From NCBI RefSeq assembly GCF_000425585.1, contig NZ_AUDS01000009.1, positions 151,708 through 215,707 of the forward strand: a DNA stretch of 64,000 nucleotides, in the 5' to 3' direction. Below are positions 17,685 to 61,841 of the stretch, piece by piece. This DNA is from Terrimonas ferruginea DSM 30193. Lineage in GTDB: Bacteria > Bacteroidota > Bacteroidia > Chitinophagales > Chitinophagaceae. Every line of letters starts with the position of its first letter. Position 1 is the first letter of the stretch. Both the position numbers and the translations under genes were made by a program. The notes under the pieces are model-generated. The model was not told where the DNA came from. It saw only the letters and a program-made list of their open reading frames with translations, and did no database searches.

Positions 17685-17878
17685 AAAAGGTGTAAGGCGT
17701 AAGGTGAAACAGCCGTAGTAAGTACTAAGTAATAAGTTTTAGGTATTTTTTTGGCTTCTTTGTTTGGGATCGATATTACTTTAAATAACGCGCAAGTTCA
17801 CAATTGACTATTGACTATTCACTATTCACGATTGACGATTCACGATTGACGATTCACGATTGACGATTCACGATTGAC
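17685..17878. repeat. Mosaic heptamer-repeat locus D, running into purK
   Basis: Between purK and the adaptor gene are an NNNTAAG stretch (about 17689-17706), AAACAGCCG at about 17707, an NTAAGTA array (about 17713-17745), and a minus-sense GTGAATN/GTCAATN array (about 17800-17878). The array crosses the purK stop codon, so the last codons of purK are part of it. The spacer also has to hold the efflux operon promoter, for which I see no clear TAnnTTTG box. Confidence 0.8.
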
Positions 17879-18993
17879 GTGACTTTCATCAGGTTCTTCA
17901 CTTTATTCGCATTGAACAACAAATCCTGTTTTGTGGGGGCAATCACCGTCACATGCCCCATCTTACGGCCGGGTTTCGTTTCTTTTTTACCATAAATGTG
18001 CACAAATGCGCTGTCGATCTTCAACACTTCTTCCAACCCTTCGTATACTGCCGGGCCGCTGAATCCTTCCGCACCTACCAGGTTGATCATTGCCGAAGGC
18101 AAAATCGGATCGGTATTGCCCAACGGATAACCGAGGATGATCCGCCAGAGCATGTCGAACTGCGAGCTGTAATGCGCTTCAATGGTATGATGCCCACTGT
18201 TGTGCACACGCGGGGCGGTCTCATTGACCAGCACATCACCTTCGGTATTTACGAATAATTCCACTGCATAGATGCCGGGTGATTTAAAATTCCGCACCAC
18301 GGAAAGAGCGATGGCTTCGGCTTTCCAGAGCGTGCGCTGATCCAGATCGGCGGGGCAGAGCTGGTAATCGAGCAGGTTGAGCACCGGATCGAAGATCATT
18401 TCAACGGGCGGATAGAGCGCCGTTTCGCCTTCTTTATTCATCGCCACCATCACCGCAATTTCCTTGCGGATATTCACCATTTTTTCCAGTACGGATGGCA
18501 CATCAAAGCCTTTATCGAGGTCGGCTTTTTCACGGATCAGTTGCACGCCTTTGCCATCATATCCGCCTTCACCCATTTTGTGAACGGCAGGGATCAGCTC
18601 TGTATGTTGCGCGAGTTCGCTTTTCGACTGCGTGATCACAAACGCAGGGGACGGAATCTCGTTTTCTTTATAATACTGTTTCTGCAGAATTTTGTTTTTG
18701 ATCGTGCGCAGAACGGAAGGGCGCGGATAAATGGCCAATCCTTCTTTTTCCAGTTGCTCCAGGGCTTCCACATTCACGTTTTCGATCTCGATCGTAAGGG
18801 CGTCCACCATTTTTCCGAAGGCGTAAACATCATCGTAATTGCGTATATCACCTTTTACAAAGTGGTCGCAGAGATGCGCAGAGGGGCAGTGGGCGTCGTT
18901 TTCCAGCACAAACGTTTCAACCGGATAATTAGCTGCGGCCTGCAGCAGCATGCGGCCCAACTGGCCGCCACCAAGAATACCTGCTTTTAACAT
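17854..18993 (-). CDS. purK: 5-(carboxyamino)imidazole ribonucleotide synthase PurK
   Basis: A 379-residue ATP-grasp enzyme that makes N5-CAIR from AIR, bicarbonate and ATP. It starts MLKAGILGGGQLGRMLLQAA with the N-terminal glycine loop, and contains KMGEGGYDGKGVQLI and the ATP-grasp metal site ETAPRVHNSGHHTIEA. The last seven residues, SIVNRQS, and the TGA stop are encoded by units of the intergenic GTGAATN/GTCAATN array, so the C-terminus has been overwritten or extended by repeats. The normal neighbour purE is displaced by an efflux operon. Confidence 0.96.
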   Translation of the reverse strand: MLKAGILGGGQLGRMLLQAAANYPVETFVLENDAHCPSAHLCDHFVKGDIRNYDDVYAFGKMVDALTIEIENVNVEALEQLEKEGLAIYPRPSVLRTIKNKILQKQYYKENEIPSPAFVITQSKSELAQHTELIPAVHKMGEGGYDGKGVQLIREKADLDKGFDVPSVLEKMVNIRKEIAVMVAMNKEGETALYPPVEMIFDPVLNLLDYQLCPADLDQRTLWKAEAIALSVVRNFKSPGIYAVELFVNTEGDVLVNETAPRVHNSGHHTIEAHYSSQFDMLWRIILGYPLGNTDPILPSAMINLVGAEGFSGPAVYEGLEEVLKIDSAFVHIYGKKETKPGRKMGHVTVIAPTKQDLLFNANKVKNLMKVTSIVNRQS

Positions 18994-24245: not shown

Positions 24246-24565
24246 ATCAAAAGTCAAAATTCAAAAGCGGTGCACTGAGCTTGCCGAAGTGTCAAAAGAG
24301 AACAGCCGTTATAAGTATTAAGTAGTAAGTTTTAAGTAGTAAGTAATAAGTTTTGTGCCCTTCATGAAGCCGAAGTATCGGCCTCAGCGAACGAATCAAG
24401 GGAATTTGATGCATTCACCCGCGTTCGTGAATACACAATACTGGTTCGTGAAAACACGAACCAGGGGAGATTTGACGCATTCACTATTCACCATTGACAA
24501 TTCACTATTCACCATTGACTTATTCACCATTCACCATTGACGATTGACGATTCACCATTCACGCT
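24244..24565. repeat. Mosaic heptamer-repeat locus F with composite element
   Basis: The 380-base gap between fbp and the CAP gene is almost wholly repeats: a DTCAAAA array (24246-24268), a partial CACTGAGCTTGCCGAAGTGT segment, AACAGCCG (24301), an NTAAGTA array (about 24310-24353), the composite block 24337-24486 that mirrors 7101-7240, and a minus-sense GTGAATN array (about 24477-24563). No reading frame in it looks genuine. Confidence 0.85.
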
Positions 24566-42559: not shown

Positions 42560-42564
42560 GGGCA

Positions 42565-42960
42565 ATGAGTGAATGAGTGAATGGGTGAATGGGTGAATGG
42601 GTGAATGGTGAATGGGTGAATGGTGAATAGTGAATGGTGAATGGTGAATAGTGAATAGTGAATAGTGAATAATGAATTAGGATATATGGCTGTACCTATT
42701 ACTATTACCTATAAACGGCTGTTTTCATCACGCCACCGTTGGTCTCCAGACCAACGGACCCGCTCATCCTTAAGTTATGTACGAAGTTGACCTTAACCTG
42801 TCAAAGAAGCATGACGCTTGCTTGTCGGTCGGGAGACCAACAAGGGTACTAATTGCTTTTTTGGGACAACAGGTCAATAAGTGAATGGTGAATGGTGAAT
42901 AGTGAATAGGTGAAACGAGCCTGGTCGGCTGTTTACTTACAACTTATAACTTATAACGGC
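42565..42960. repeat. Mosaic heptamer-repeat locus J
   Basis: The largest gene-free stretch (42480-43141). After the rpoD terminator come about 14 GTGAATN units of 7 or 8 bp (42565-42675), then ACGGCTGTTT (about 42715). A 22-base palindrome at 42736-42757 has arms CCGTTGGTCT around CC, and a degenerate partner lies near 42818-42842. More GTGAATN units (42879-42915), GGTCGGCTGTTT and an inverted NTAAGTA-like stretch (to 42955) end in another ACGGCTGTTT. No convincing gene. Confidence 0.85.
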
Positions 42961-56767: not shown

Positions 56768-58516
56768 ATGGCAAACTCTATTTTTAGAAAAAAATCCATT
56801 GCAACGATTGTACGTGAGGCGGAAAGCGGAATAACAGACGGACACGGTACAGGACTAAAAAAAGTATTGGGTGTAAGAGACCTTACCGCGCTGGGTGTGG
56901 CTGCGGTGATCGGTGCGGGTATCTTCAGTAGTATTGGCAAAGCGTCTGCGGACGGCGGTCCCGGCGTTGTGTTTCTTTATATTTTTACAGCCATTGCCTG
57001 CGGATTTGCCGCGCTTTGCTATGCACAATTTGCCTCGACCGTACCGGTTGCAGGCAGTGCGTATACTTATTCTTATGTCGCCTTCGGCGAAATTTTTGCC
57101 TGGATCATCGGATGGGATCTGTTAATGGAATACGCCATCGGCAACATTGCGGTAGCCATTTCCTGGAGCGATTATTTTACCAACCTCATGACCAAGGCCG
57201 GGATGCACATACCGGATTGGCTTACGATGGACTATGTAACGGCCCGGAATGGTTTTGCGGAAGTAAGTGACTTAGTTGCCAACGGATCGAAGCTGTCAGG
57301 CCTCGATGCCGGCATGGTAGAAAGGTACAATGCCTGGCAATATGCGCCACAGATCGGCGGACTTCGCCTGATCATGGATTTGCCGGCCTTGCTCATCGTG
57401 GCATTGATCACTTACATTGTATTCCGCGGCGTAAAGGAAAGCCGCAACGCAAGCAACCTGATGGTATTGCTCAAACTGGCGGTCATCTTCTTTGTAATAG
57501 TATTGGGTGCATTTTATATCAATCCTGATAACTGGACTCCCTTTACACCTACAGGCATCAGTGGCATTCTTAAAGGGGTATCGGCGGTATTCTTTGCCTA
57601 TATTGGTTTTGACGCGATATCGACCACGGCGGAAGAATGCAAGGACCCTCAACGCGACCTGCCGCGCGGAATGATTTATTCATTGATCATCTGTACGATC
57701 TTATATGTAATCCTCGCGCTGGTATTGACGGGCATGGTGCCCTACACCACACTGAATGTGGGCGATCCGCTGGCGTCGGTATTCGATGCCAAGAACCTGA
57801 AATTCGTTTCCGCTATCGTAGCCGTAAGTGCGATCGTTGCCACGGCGAGCGTATTGCTGGTATTCCAGATGGGCCAGCCACGTATCTGGATGAGCATGAG
57901 CCGCGACGGACTTTTGCCCAAAATATTCTCCCGCATTCACCCGATCTATAAAACGCCTTCCTTCTCTACGATCGTTACGGGGCTGGTAGTAGCCATTCCA
58001 GCGCTTTTCCTGAACCTGGAAGTAGTGCTGGCACTGACCAGTATCGGAACCTTGTTCGCATTCGTGCTGGTTTGCGGAGGTATTCTGGTACTGGATGCGC
58101 GCAAGGATACACCGAAATCCAAATTCAAAGTGCCGTATATCAACAGCCAATATATCGTTCCGGGGCTGTTCCTGCTGGCGATTGCGCTGATCATCGCCAA
58201 CCATCCCACCCATTTCCAGGAAATATTAACGGTGGAATCTTTCCCGATGATCCTCTTCTGGCTGGTTGTGACCATAATGAGCGTTTTGAGTTTTACGAGG
58301 AAACTATCCCTGCTTCCGGTATTGGGGATGATCAGCTGTTTTTACCTGATGGCACAGGAACATCATTCCAACTGGCTGCGGTTCCTGATCTGGCTGGGGC
58401 TTGGTCTGGTGATCTATTTCCTGTACAGTCGCCGCCATAGCAAGCTGAATCCGGCAAATACTACCTTGAAACAGCCGCCGCCCGATACTTCGGGCCGAAG
58501 CTTCGGCCATAAGTAG
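56768..58516 (+). CDS. APC family amino acid permease with repeat-derived C-terminus
   Basis: A 582-residue transporter of the APC superfamily (cationic amino-acid transporter-like). About 12-14 helices follow a cytosolic N-terminus; GVAAVIGAGIFSSIGKA is the helix-1 substrate loop and AYIGFDAISTTAEECKDPQRDLP the conserved post-helix-6 segment. The cytosolic C-terminus is odd: the last 15 residues, QPPPDTSGRSFGHK with the preceding K, are encoded by the intergenic module AAACAGCCG..CCCGATACTT..CTTCGGCCATAAGTA, which recurs as non-coding DNA at 61.73-61.78 kb. The TAG stop lies in the NTAAGTA array. Confidence 0.93.
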   Translation: MANSIFRKKSIATIVREAESGITDGHGTGLKKVLGVRDLTALGVAAVIGAGIFSSIGKASADGGPGVVFLYIFTAIACGFAALCYAQFASTVPVAGSAYTYSYVAFGEIFAWIIGWDLLMEYAIGNIAVAISWSDYFTNLMTKAGMHIPDWLTMDYVTARNGFAEVSDLVANGSKLSGLDAGMVERYNAWQYAPQIGGLRLIMDLPALLIVALITYIVFRGVKESRNASNLMVLLKLAVIFFVIVLGAFYINPDNWTPFTPTGISGILKGVSAVFFAYIGFDAISTTAEECKDPQRDLPRGMIYSLIICTILYVILALVLTGMVPYTTLNVGDPLASVFDAKNLKFVSAIVAVSAIVATASVLLVFQMGQPRIWMSMSRDGLLPKIFSRIHPIYKTPSFSTIVTGLVVAIPALFLNLEVVLALTSIGTLFAFVLVCGGILVLDARKDTPKSKFKVPYINSQYIVPGLFLLAIALIIANHPTHFQEILTVESFPMILFWLVVTIMSVLSFTRKLSLLPVLGMISCFYLMAQEHHSNWLRFLIWLGLGLVIYFLYSRRHSKLNPANTTLKQPPPDTSGRSFGHK

Positions 58517-58700
58517 TAAGTATTAAGTAATAAGTACTAAGTAGCGGTGTTATAAAGTCTTTGCGCCTTTGATTCTTAAGCGCCTTTGCGTGAAACGGGC
58601 TCTTCGAGGGGAAGATGACCGGCTGTTTACCCCCCATTGAAGATTGACCAATCATGTTCCCGCTTTTTGAATTTTGGCTTTTTACTTTTGAATTAATCCC
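58469..58700. repeat. Mosaic heptamer-repeat locus M, running into the permease gene
   Basis: Starts inside the permease gene with AAACAGCCG and the hairpin CCCGATACTTCGGG plus GGCCGAAGCTTCGGCC (58480-58509). An NTAAGTA array (58509-58545), the TTTGC module (58557-58594), CGGCTGTTT (58620), GTGAATN-related remnants (58636-58655) and a minus-sense DTCAAAA stretch (58661-58695) follow. Confidence 0.85.
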
Positions 58701-60697: not shown

Positions 60698-60915
60698 AAG
60701 GTGCAAGGTTTAAGGCCCGACACTTCGGGCTAAGGGTAGAAGGTTAAACAGCCGTATTAAGTATTAAGTAATAAGTATTAAGTAGTAAGTAGTAAGTAGG
60801 GATGTTGTAAAGTCTTTGCGCCTTTGCTCCTTATGCGTCTTTGCGTGAAGGCGGGTGTTCTTTTTCACGTACGCTACTCACAATTTTGAATTTTTACTTT
60901 TGAATTTTGACTTTA
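60698..60915. repeat. Mosaic heptamer-repeat locus N
   Basis: From the epimerase stop: an NNNTAAG-like stretch with the hairpin GCCCGACACTTCGGGC (60715-60730), TAAACAGCCG (60744), an NTAAGTA array of about seven units (60752-60799), the TTTGC module (60812-60849), and a DTCAAAA stretch in minus sense (60881-60915) that contains the possible TTG start of the next gene. Confidence 0.82.
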
Positions 60916-61671: not shown

Positions 61672-61841
61672 ATGGTGAATGGTCAATAGTGAATGGCTGT
61701 TTACTTACTACTTATTACTTAATACTTAATACTTATGGCCGAAGCTTCGGCCATAAGTATCGGGCGGCTGTTTCACCTTAACCCTTACGCCTTAGGCCGA
61801 AGTTTCGGCCCGAAGTGTCGGGCCTTAAGCCTTAAGCCTTC
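61669..61841. repeat. Mosaic heptamer-repeat locus O
   Basis: GTGAATN units (61669-61690) begin at the stop of the MpaB-like gene and lead to GGCTGTTT. An inverted NTAAGTA array (61697-61733) follows, then a perfect 32-bp palindrome (61729-61760), CGGGCGGCTGTTT, a minus-sense NNNTAAG stretch, hairpins GGCCGAAGTTTCGGCC and CCCGAAGTGTCGGG (about 61796-61820), and GCTTAAG units that supply the stop of gap. Confidence 0.87.

Follow-up and report, generated by a model that had tools for sequence, protein, structure and literature searches.

The C-terminal tail of an APC-family amino-acid permease is lineage-specific, translated dispersed-repeat (spacer) DNA. The gene lies in a stretch of 64,000 nucleotides from Terrimonas ferruginea DSM 30193 (contig NZ_AUDS01000009.1, positions 151,708 to 215,707), called the window here and numbered from its first base. 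The first-pass annotation had read the end of this permease as a translated intergenic module, and this holds: 48 bp match a non-coding copy on the opposite strand, and the tail is carried by none of 83 orthologues. As to its origin, we infer, with a probability of roughly 65%, that the permease lost its stop codon by a point change or a one-base indel and was extended into an abutting repeat that supplies stops.

The permease and its C-terminal tail

The ORF ends in ...SRRHSKLNPANTTLKQPPPDTSGRSFGHK before its stop codon, and positions 58469-58516 (AAACAGCCGCCGCCCGATACTTCGGGCCGAAGCTTCGGCCATAAGTAG) code for the last 15 codons and the stop (KQPPPDTSGRSFGHK-stop). The dispersed repeat at this end has a fixed order, running from the box AAACAGCCG through two GC-rich palindromes into a TAAGTAN heptad array. 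The features are as follows.

56768..58516, + strand: APC-family amino-acid permease ORF, 582 aa, with AA_permease_2 at 34-499 and AA_permease_C at 515-558
58448..58513, + strand: 22-aa tail (NPANTTLKQPPPDTSGRSFGHK) past conserved ...SKL, its final 15-16 aa being repeat; in 0/83 orthologues
58469..58477, + strand: AAACAGCCG box, start of the repeat homology, with TTG just before it and a +1-frame TGA at 58467-58469
58481..58494, + strand: palindrome CCCGATACTTCGGG, translated
58493..58508, + strand: perfect palindrome GGCCGAAGCTTCGGCC, translated
58510..58544, + strand: TAAGTAN heptad array of 5 units, carrying the repeat on beyond the permease stop
58514..58516, + strand: TAG stop codon, contributed by the heptad array in its first TAAGTAG unit

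Orthologous permeases

In the 83 orthologues with a readable end, the stop lies on average 6.4 residues past the conserved SK motif (SD 3.1, median 6, maximum 17), whereas the window permease ends 23 residues past it, and its extension matches spacer repeats elsewhere in the genome. The peptides KQP, PPPD, SGRSF and FGHK are absent from all 83. Since the tail is found in no orthologue and the permease ends far past all of theirs, the tail is lineage-specific and consists of translated spacer DNA. Presence of the ending in all orthologues had been named beforehand as the observation that would speak against this reading; it was seen in 0/83.

The closest ortholog in the whole-genome set (G017) is 71% identical and ends in ...SHLNKEPA and a stop. 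The gene order prenyl synthetase-permease-Smr protein is kept in this genome, and GTGAATC-like heptads lie directly 3' of the permease stop. Judged from these two genomes, the heptads of the permease 3' spacer seem to be replaced over time but to keep their place after the stop. The single other genome from the same genus lacks the palindrome module and encodes a permease of 57% identity; it is too diverged to give the ancestral state within the genus.

Copies of the repeat in the window

Three stretches nearby, the first two of them untranslated, share parts of the unit with the permease end.

60746..60860, + strand: direct partner with AAACAGCCG, a TAAGTAN array and a CTTTGCGCC box; 84% over 96 nt against 58510-58605
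61702..61773, - strand: inverted copy of the box-palindrome-array unit; 94% over 67 nt, with a 15-bp perfect hairpin
61795..61823, - strand: second, diverged double-palindrome copy; 93% over 29 nt

With 61702-61785 read in reverse complement, the 48 bp align with one 3-bp gap and three substitutions, of which two are neighbouring bases (CG/AT) and the third is the last base (TAG/TAT). In the window the 48-mer reaches a best local alignment score of 35; dinucleotide shuffles (n=100) average 13.1 and do not exceed 16. The partner had been placed at 61729-61778; the match itself is sound, and its far end falls about 5 bp short of that, giving an extent of about 61729-61773. The homology crosses the permease stop codon into the downstream heptad array with no boundary, and two neighbouring spacers hold box, array and CTTTGCGCC box in common order.

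Repeat families across the genome

Genome-wide counts were made in a sample of 1.92 Mb (41% of the genome), in which a home-made hexamer-score gene finder called about 1,500 genes (1,497 in the counts). The spacers of this Bacteroidota genome, whose permease relatives mark it as Chitinophagaceae-like, are built in good part from a few short dispersed repeat families, namely heptad arrays, a AAACAGCC box and CCGAA/TTCGG palindromes. The unit families of the heptad arrays are TAAGTAN, GTSAATN, TTTTGAN and TAAGGNN, seen for instance at 17797-17879, 24472-24564 and 42564-42670 of the window. Arrays of 7-bp units make up 4.9% of non-coding DNA versus 0.03% of coding DNA, and period-7 self-similarity in the first two contigs is 9.6 per 1,000 positions in spacers versus 0.011 in genes. 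In a search of the genome as a whole, the palindromic unit has about 45-50 matching places and the heptads have many more. The box-plus-palindrome unit occurs at 27 places in the 1.92 Mb, 25 of them non-coding and two coding, both at gene 3' ends.

Among 150 genomes sampled from the family, the palindromic unit has matches in its own genome only, and TAAGTAN arrays occur in 29, own genome counted. Heptad richness as a general trait of the genus or family was considered and set aside, as arrays amount to only 0.8-0.9% of non-coding DNA in the samples of G001 and G068; the density here, about 6 times higher, is peculiar to this genome among those examined. Papers on intergenic heptad repeats in Chitinophagaceae were looked for, and none on this topic turned up.

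In 15/302 cases the best-matching spacer is no more than 10 kb away, versus 3.7 expected, about 4 times as many, with reciprocal pairs counted twice. This excess of nearby matches, together with the ordered shared blocks, which recur in both orientations, indicates that units are copied as blocks, partly locally, in agreement with the earlier proposal that the modules move as multi-part units.

Repeats at gene 3' ends

Repeats in this genome are strongly tied to gene 3' ends. In spacers of at least 200 nt, all spacer repeats pooled, repeats cover 25-31% of the 30 nt that follow stops, a share that drops to 19% by 100 nt, compared with 3-6% for the 20 nt just upstream of starts. Convergent spacers carry arrays most often (30%), followed by codirectional (17%) and divergent ones (9%).

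When repeat words are taken from the spacers, 23 of 1,497 genes show 14 or more repeat bases among their final 60, and at least 14 contiguous repeat bases stand at the 3' end of 14/1,497 genes versus one at the 5' end. The permease tail is thus not a singular capture; other genes also end in repeats. The second gene ending in the box-palindrome module, C4:156690-158327, reads it in a frame that differs from that of the permease and ends in ...VVDYGVSSNSRPMLRA, while its four orthologues all stop within a few residues of a shared point (...VVDYQVKK, ...VVDYHYQR, ...VINYNASR and ...VIVAYK). Tail checks of three further genes showed short extensions at most; for the C5:169561 gene, the best orthologues match to residues 369-376 of 379.

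A gene on the minus strand (G000:C5:122322-123260) ends in RRRVKQP, encoded by GTGAAACAGCCGTAA; this is the box of the permease, read in the same frame, with the stop at the junction of box and array.

Origin of the tail

Under the stop-loss reading, an ordered unit of box, double palindrome and TAAGTAN array would have lain directly 3' of the permease gene. The native stop, about 5-6 residues past the conserved SKL end, would then have been lost by a substitution or a one-base indel, and translation would now run through the palindromes to the first in-frame stop of the heptad array, adding a cytoplasmic tail that is probably neutral. A one-base indel is an attractive guess because the +1-frame TGA at the edge of the box would end the permease 6 residues beyond SKL, as in the orthologues. 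Since 7 is not divisible by 3, each unit shifts the frame, and an array with a stop triplet in its unit on the strand read supplies a stop within a few units whichever frame is used. Gene 3' ends have repeats next to them genome-wide, and ordinary stop-codon loss or frameshift therefore suffices. That the permease and the non-coding copy differ by 3 bp, which keeps the frame, would agree with reading-frame selection; it is counted against stop loss, yet it is a single event.

The nearest rival, a true capture in which a multi-part module was copied or transposed into or beside the permease end and replaced its stop codon, is rather unlikely. The occurrence of the unit as an ordered block in both orientations and the fourfold excess of similar spacers within 10 kb would agree with insertion, and in-frame inserts of palindromic elements are known from the RPEs of Rickettsia (PMC10969869). 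However, only 2/27 modules are coding, both at the very 3' end of a gene, which is what read-out into a neighbouring spacer would give, and a dedicated transposase was not found. The "mobile" module of the first-pass annotation is accordingly not borne out, since the palindrome that flanks the only Y1_Tnp gene found is a different one, and neither is active capture by insertion required. RAYT-driven REP mobility was dropped on the same ground. This Y1_Tnp (RAYT-like) gene (L160:1162-2065; G000:C3 around 153,700) has TTGTTGGTCTCC..GACCAACAA palindromes on both sides, which make up a REP-like family of their own (12 word hits in two contigs).

A bolder reading, which we regard as distinctly improbable, is that an actively copied, ordered 3'-end cassette of box, double hairpin and all-frame-stop array spreads between gene ends and continually resets C-termini. 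If so, spacer repeats would be a regular source of new C-terminal sequence.

That the tail or module is functional and selected, through permease trafficking or through hairpins acting on mRNA 3' stability or termination, is very improbable. Repeats are concentrated at gene 3' ends and the non-coding copy folds into a strong 15-bp hairpin (-27.1 kcal/mol, z -5.2), but the permease copy folds weakly (z -1.4 to -1.6), the tail is in 0/83 orthologues, and a terminator-like U-tract site was looked for at the module and not found. An intrinsic terminator was likewise discarded, there being no such site at the module and no excess over shuffles, as was a known structured RNA, the only match being a sub-threshold one to a Brucella sRNA (E 0.5). 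Selection on the orientation of arrays as stop suppliers also fails, because heptad arrays lack sense/antisense bias in codirectional spacers (23/25 and 49/53).

An assembly or sequencing error, in which one wrong base after SKL moves the frame past the true stop (the +1-frame TGA), is hardly credible: removing one base between SKL and 58467 does give a short, orthologue-like end, but the site has no long homopolymer, and at least 13 other genes end in repeats too, which makes an error unneeded.

Comparison with known repeat systems

REP elements of the GTAG/CGTC type are short dispersed palindromes that lie mainly 3' of genes and in codirectional or convergent spacers; the flanking ORF often takes its stop codon from them, and in some cases they are translated at its COOH terminus (PMC3733652). 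The present module resembles them in its short dispersed palindromes, its position at gene 3' ends, the stop that it supplies and its translation at a C-terminus, and the pooled repeats likewise lie predominantly downstream of genes (25-31% after stops versus 3-6% before starts). It differs in that its palindromes are combined with a box and heptad arrays in one unit, and that no RAYT gene adjoins it; the only PF01797 hit has the TTGTTGGTCTCC..GACCAACAA flanks, not the module palindrome that a GTAG-class gene would have. A GTAG/CGTC tag was not found at the foot of the hairpin, and the flanks of the CCGAA/TTCGG palindromes vary (CATAAGTA, CCTAAGG, GGCAT...). The GTAG at 58513 is part of a heptad variant.

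TAACTGA heptamer direct repeats were described in Beggiatoaceae, Cyanobacteria and some Bacteroidetes, where forward arrays provide stops in all three frames and, in one genome, overlap the ends of 14 upstream ORFs (PMC4679880). The arrays described here are likewise intergenic 7-bp tandem units confined to spacers (4.9% of non-coding versus 0.03% of coding DNA), but they have other unit sequences, with several families in this one genome, and lie against gene 3' ends, whereas TAACTGA heptamers lie rather at start codons.

Rickettsia palindromic elements are in-frame inserts of about 150 bp that are translated within genes (PMC10969869). They share with the permease case the translation of repeat DNA within host proteins, whereas the permease carries an extension of roughly 48 bp at the gene end. 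An in-frame ORF insert with a conserved peptide, as in RPEs, was not found among the 27 module copies, of which 25 are non-coding and the two translated ones are read in different frames.

The permease tail is hence a fresh example of a known phenomenon, REP and TAACTGA repeats having already been published as stop suppliers. It offers a clear, countable case of gene-adjacent non-coding repeats turning into protein sequence when stop codons move, and annotators should not take such C-terminal tails for functional domains.

Further repeats in the spacers

The presence of several heptad families and a palindromic unit at gene ends may merit a survey of its own. Another dispersed palindrome, CCATGGTTCGTGTATACACGAACCA, has core words counted 26-28 times on both strands in the spacers of contigs C4 and C5, where the CCTTCGAGAACCTCAGGG family is likewise recurrent. 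In the convergent spacers of the 1.92 Mb, array orientation is skewed relative to the contig, with TAAGTAN at 3 versus 15 reverse and GTSAATN at 26 versus 11, which is possibly a replichore effect.
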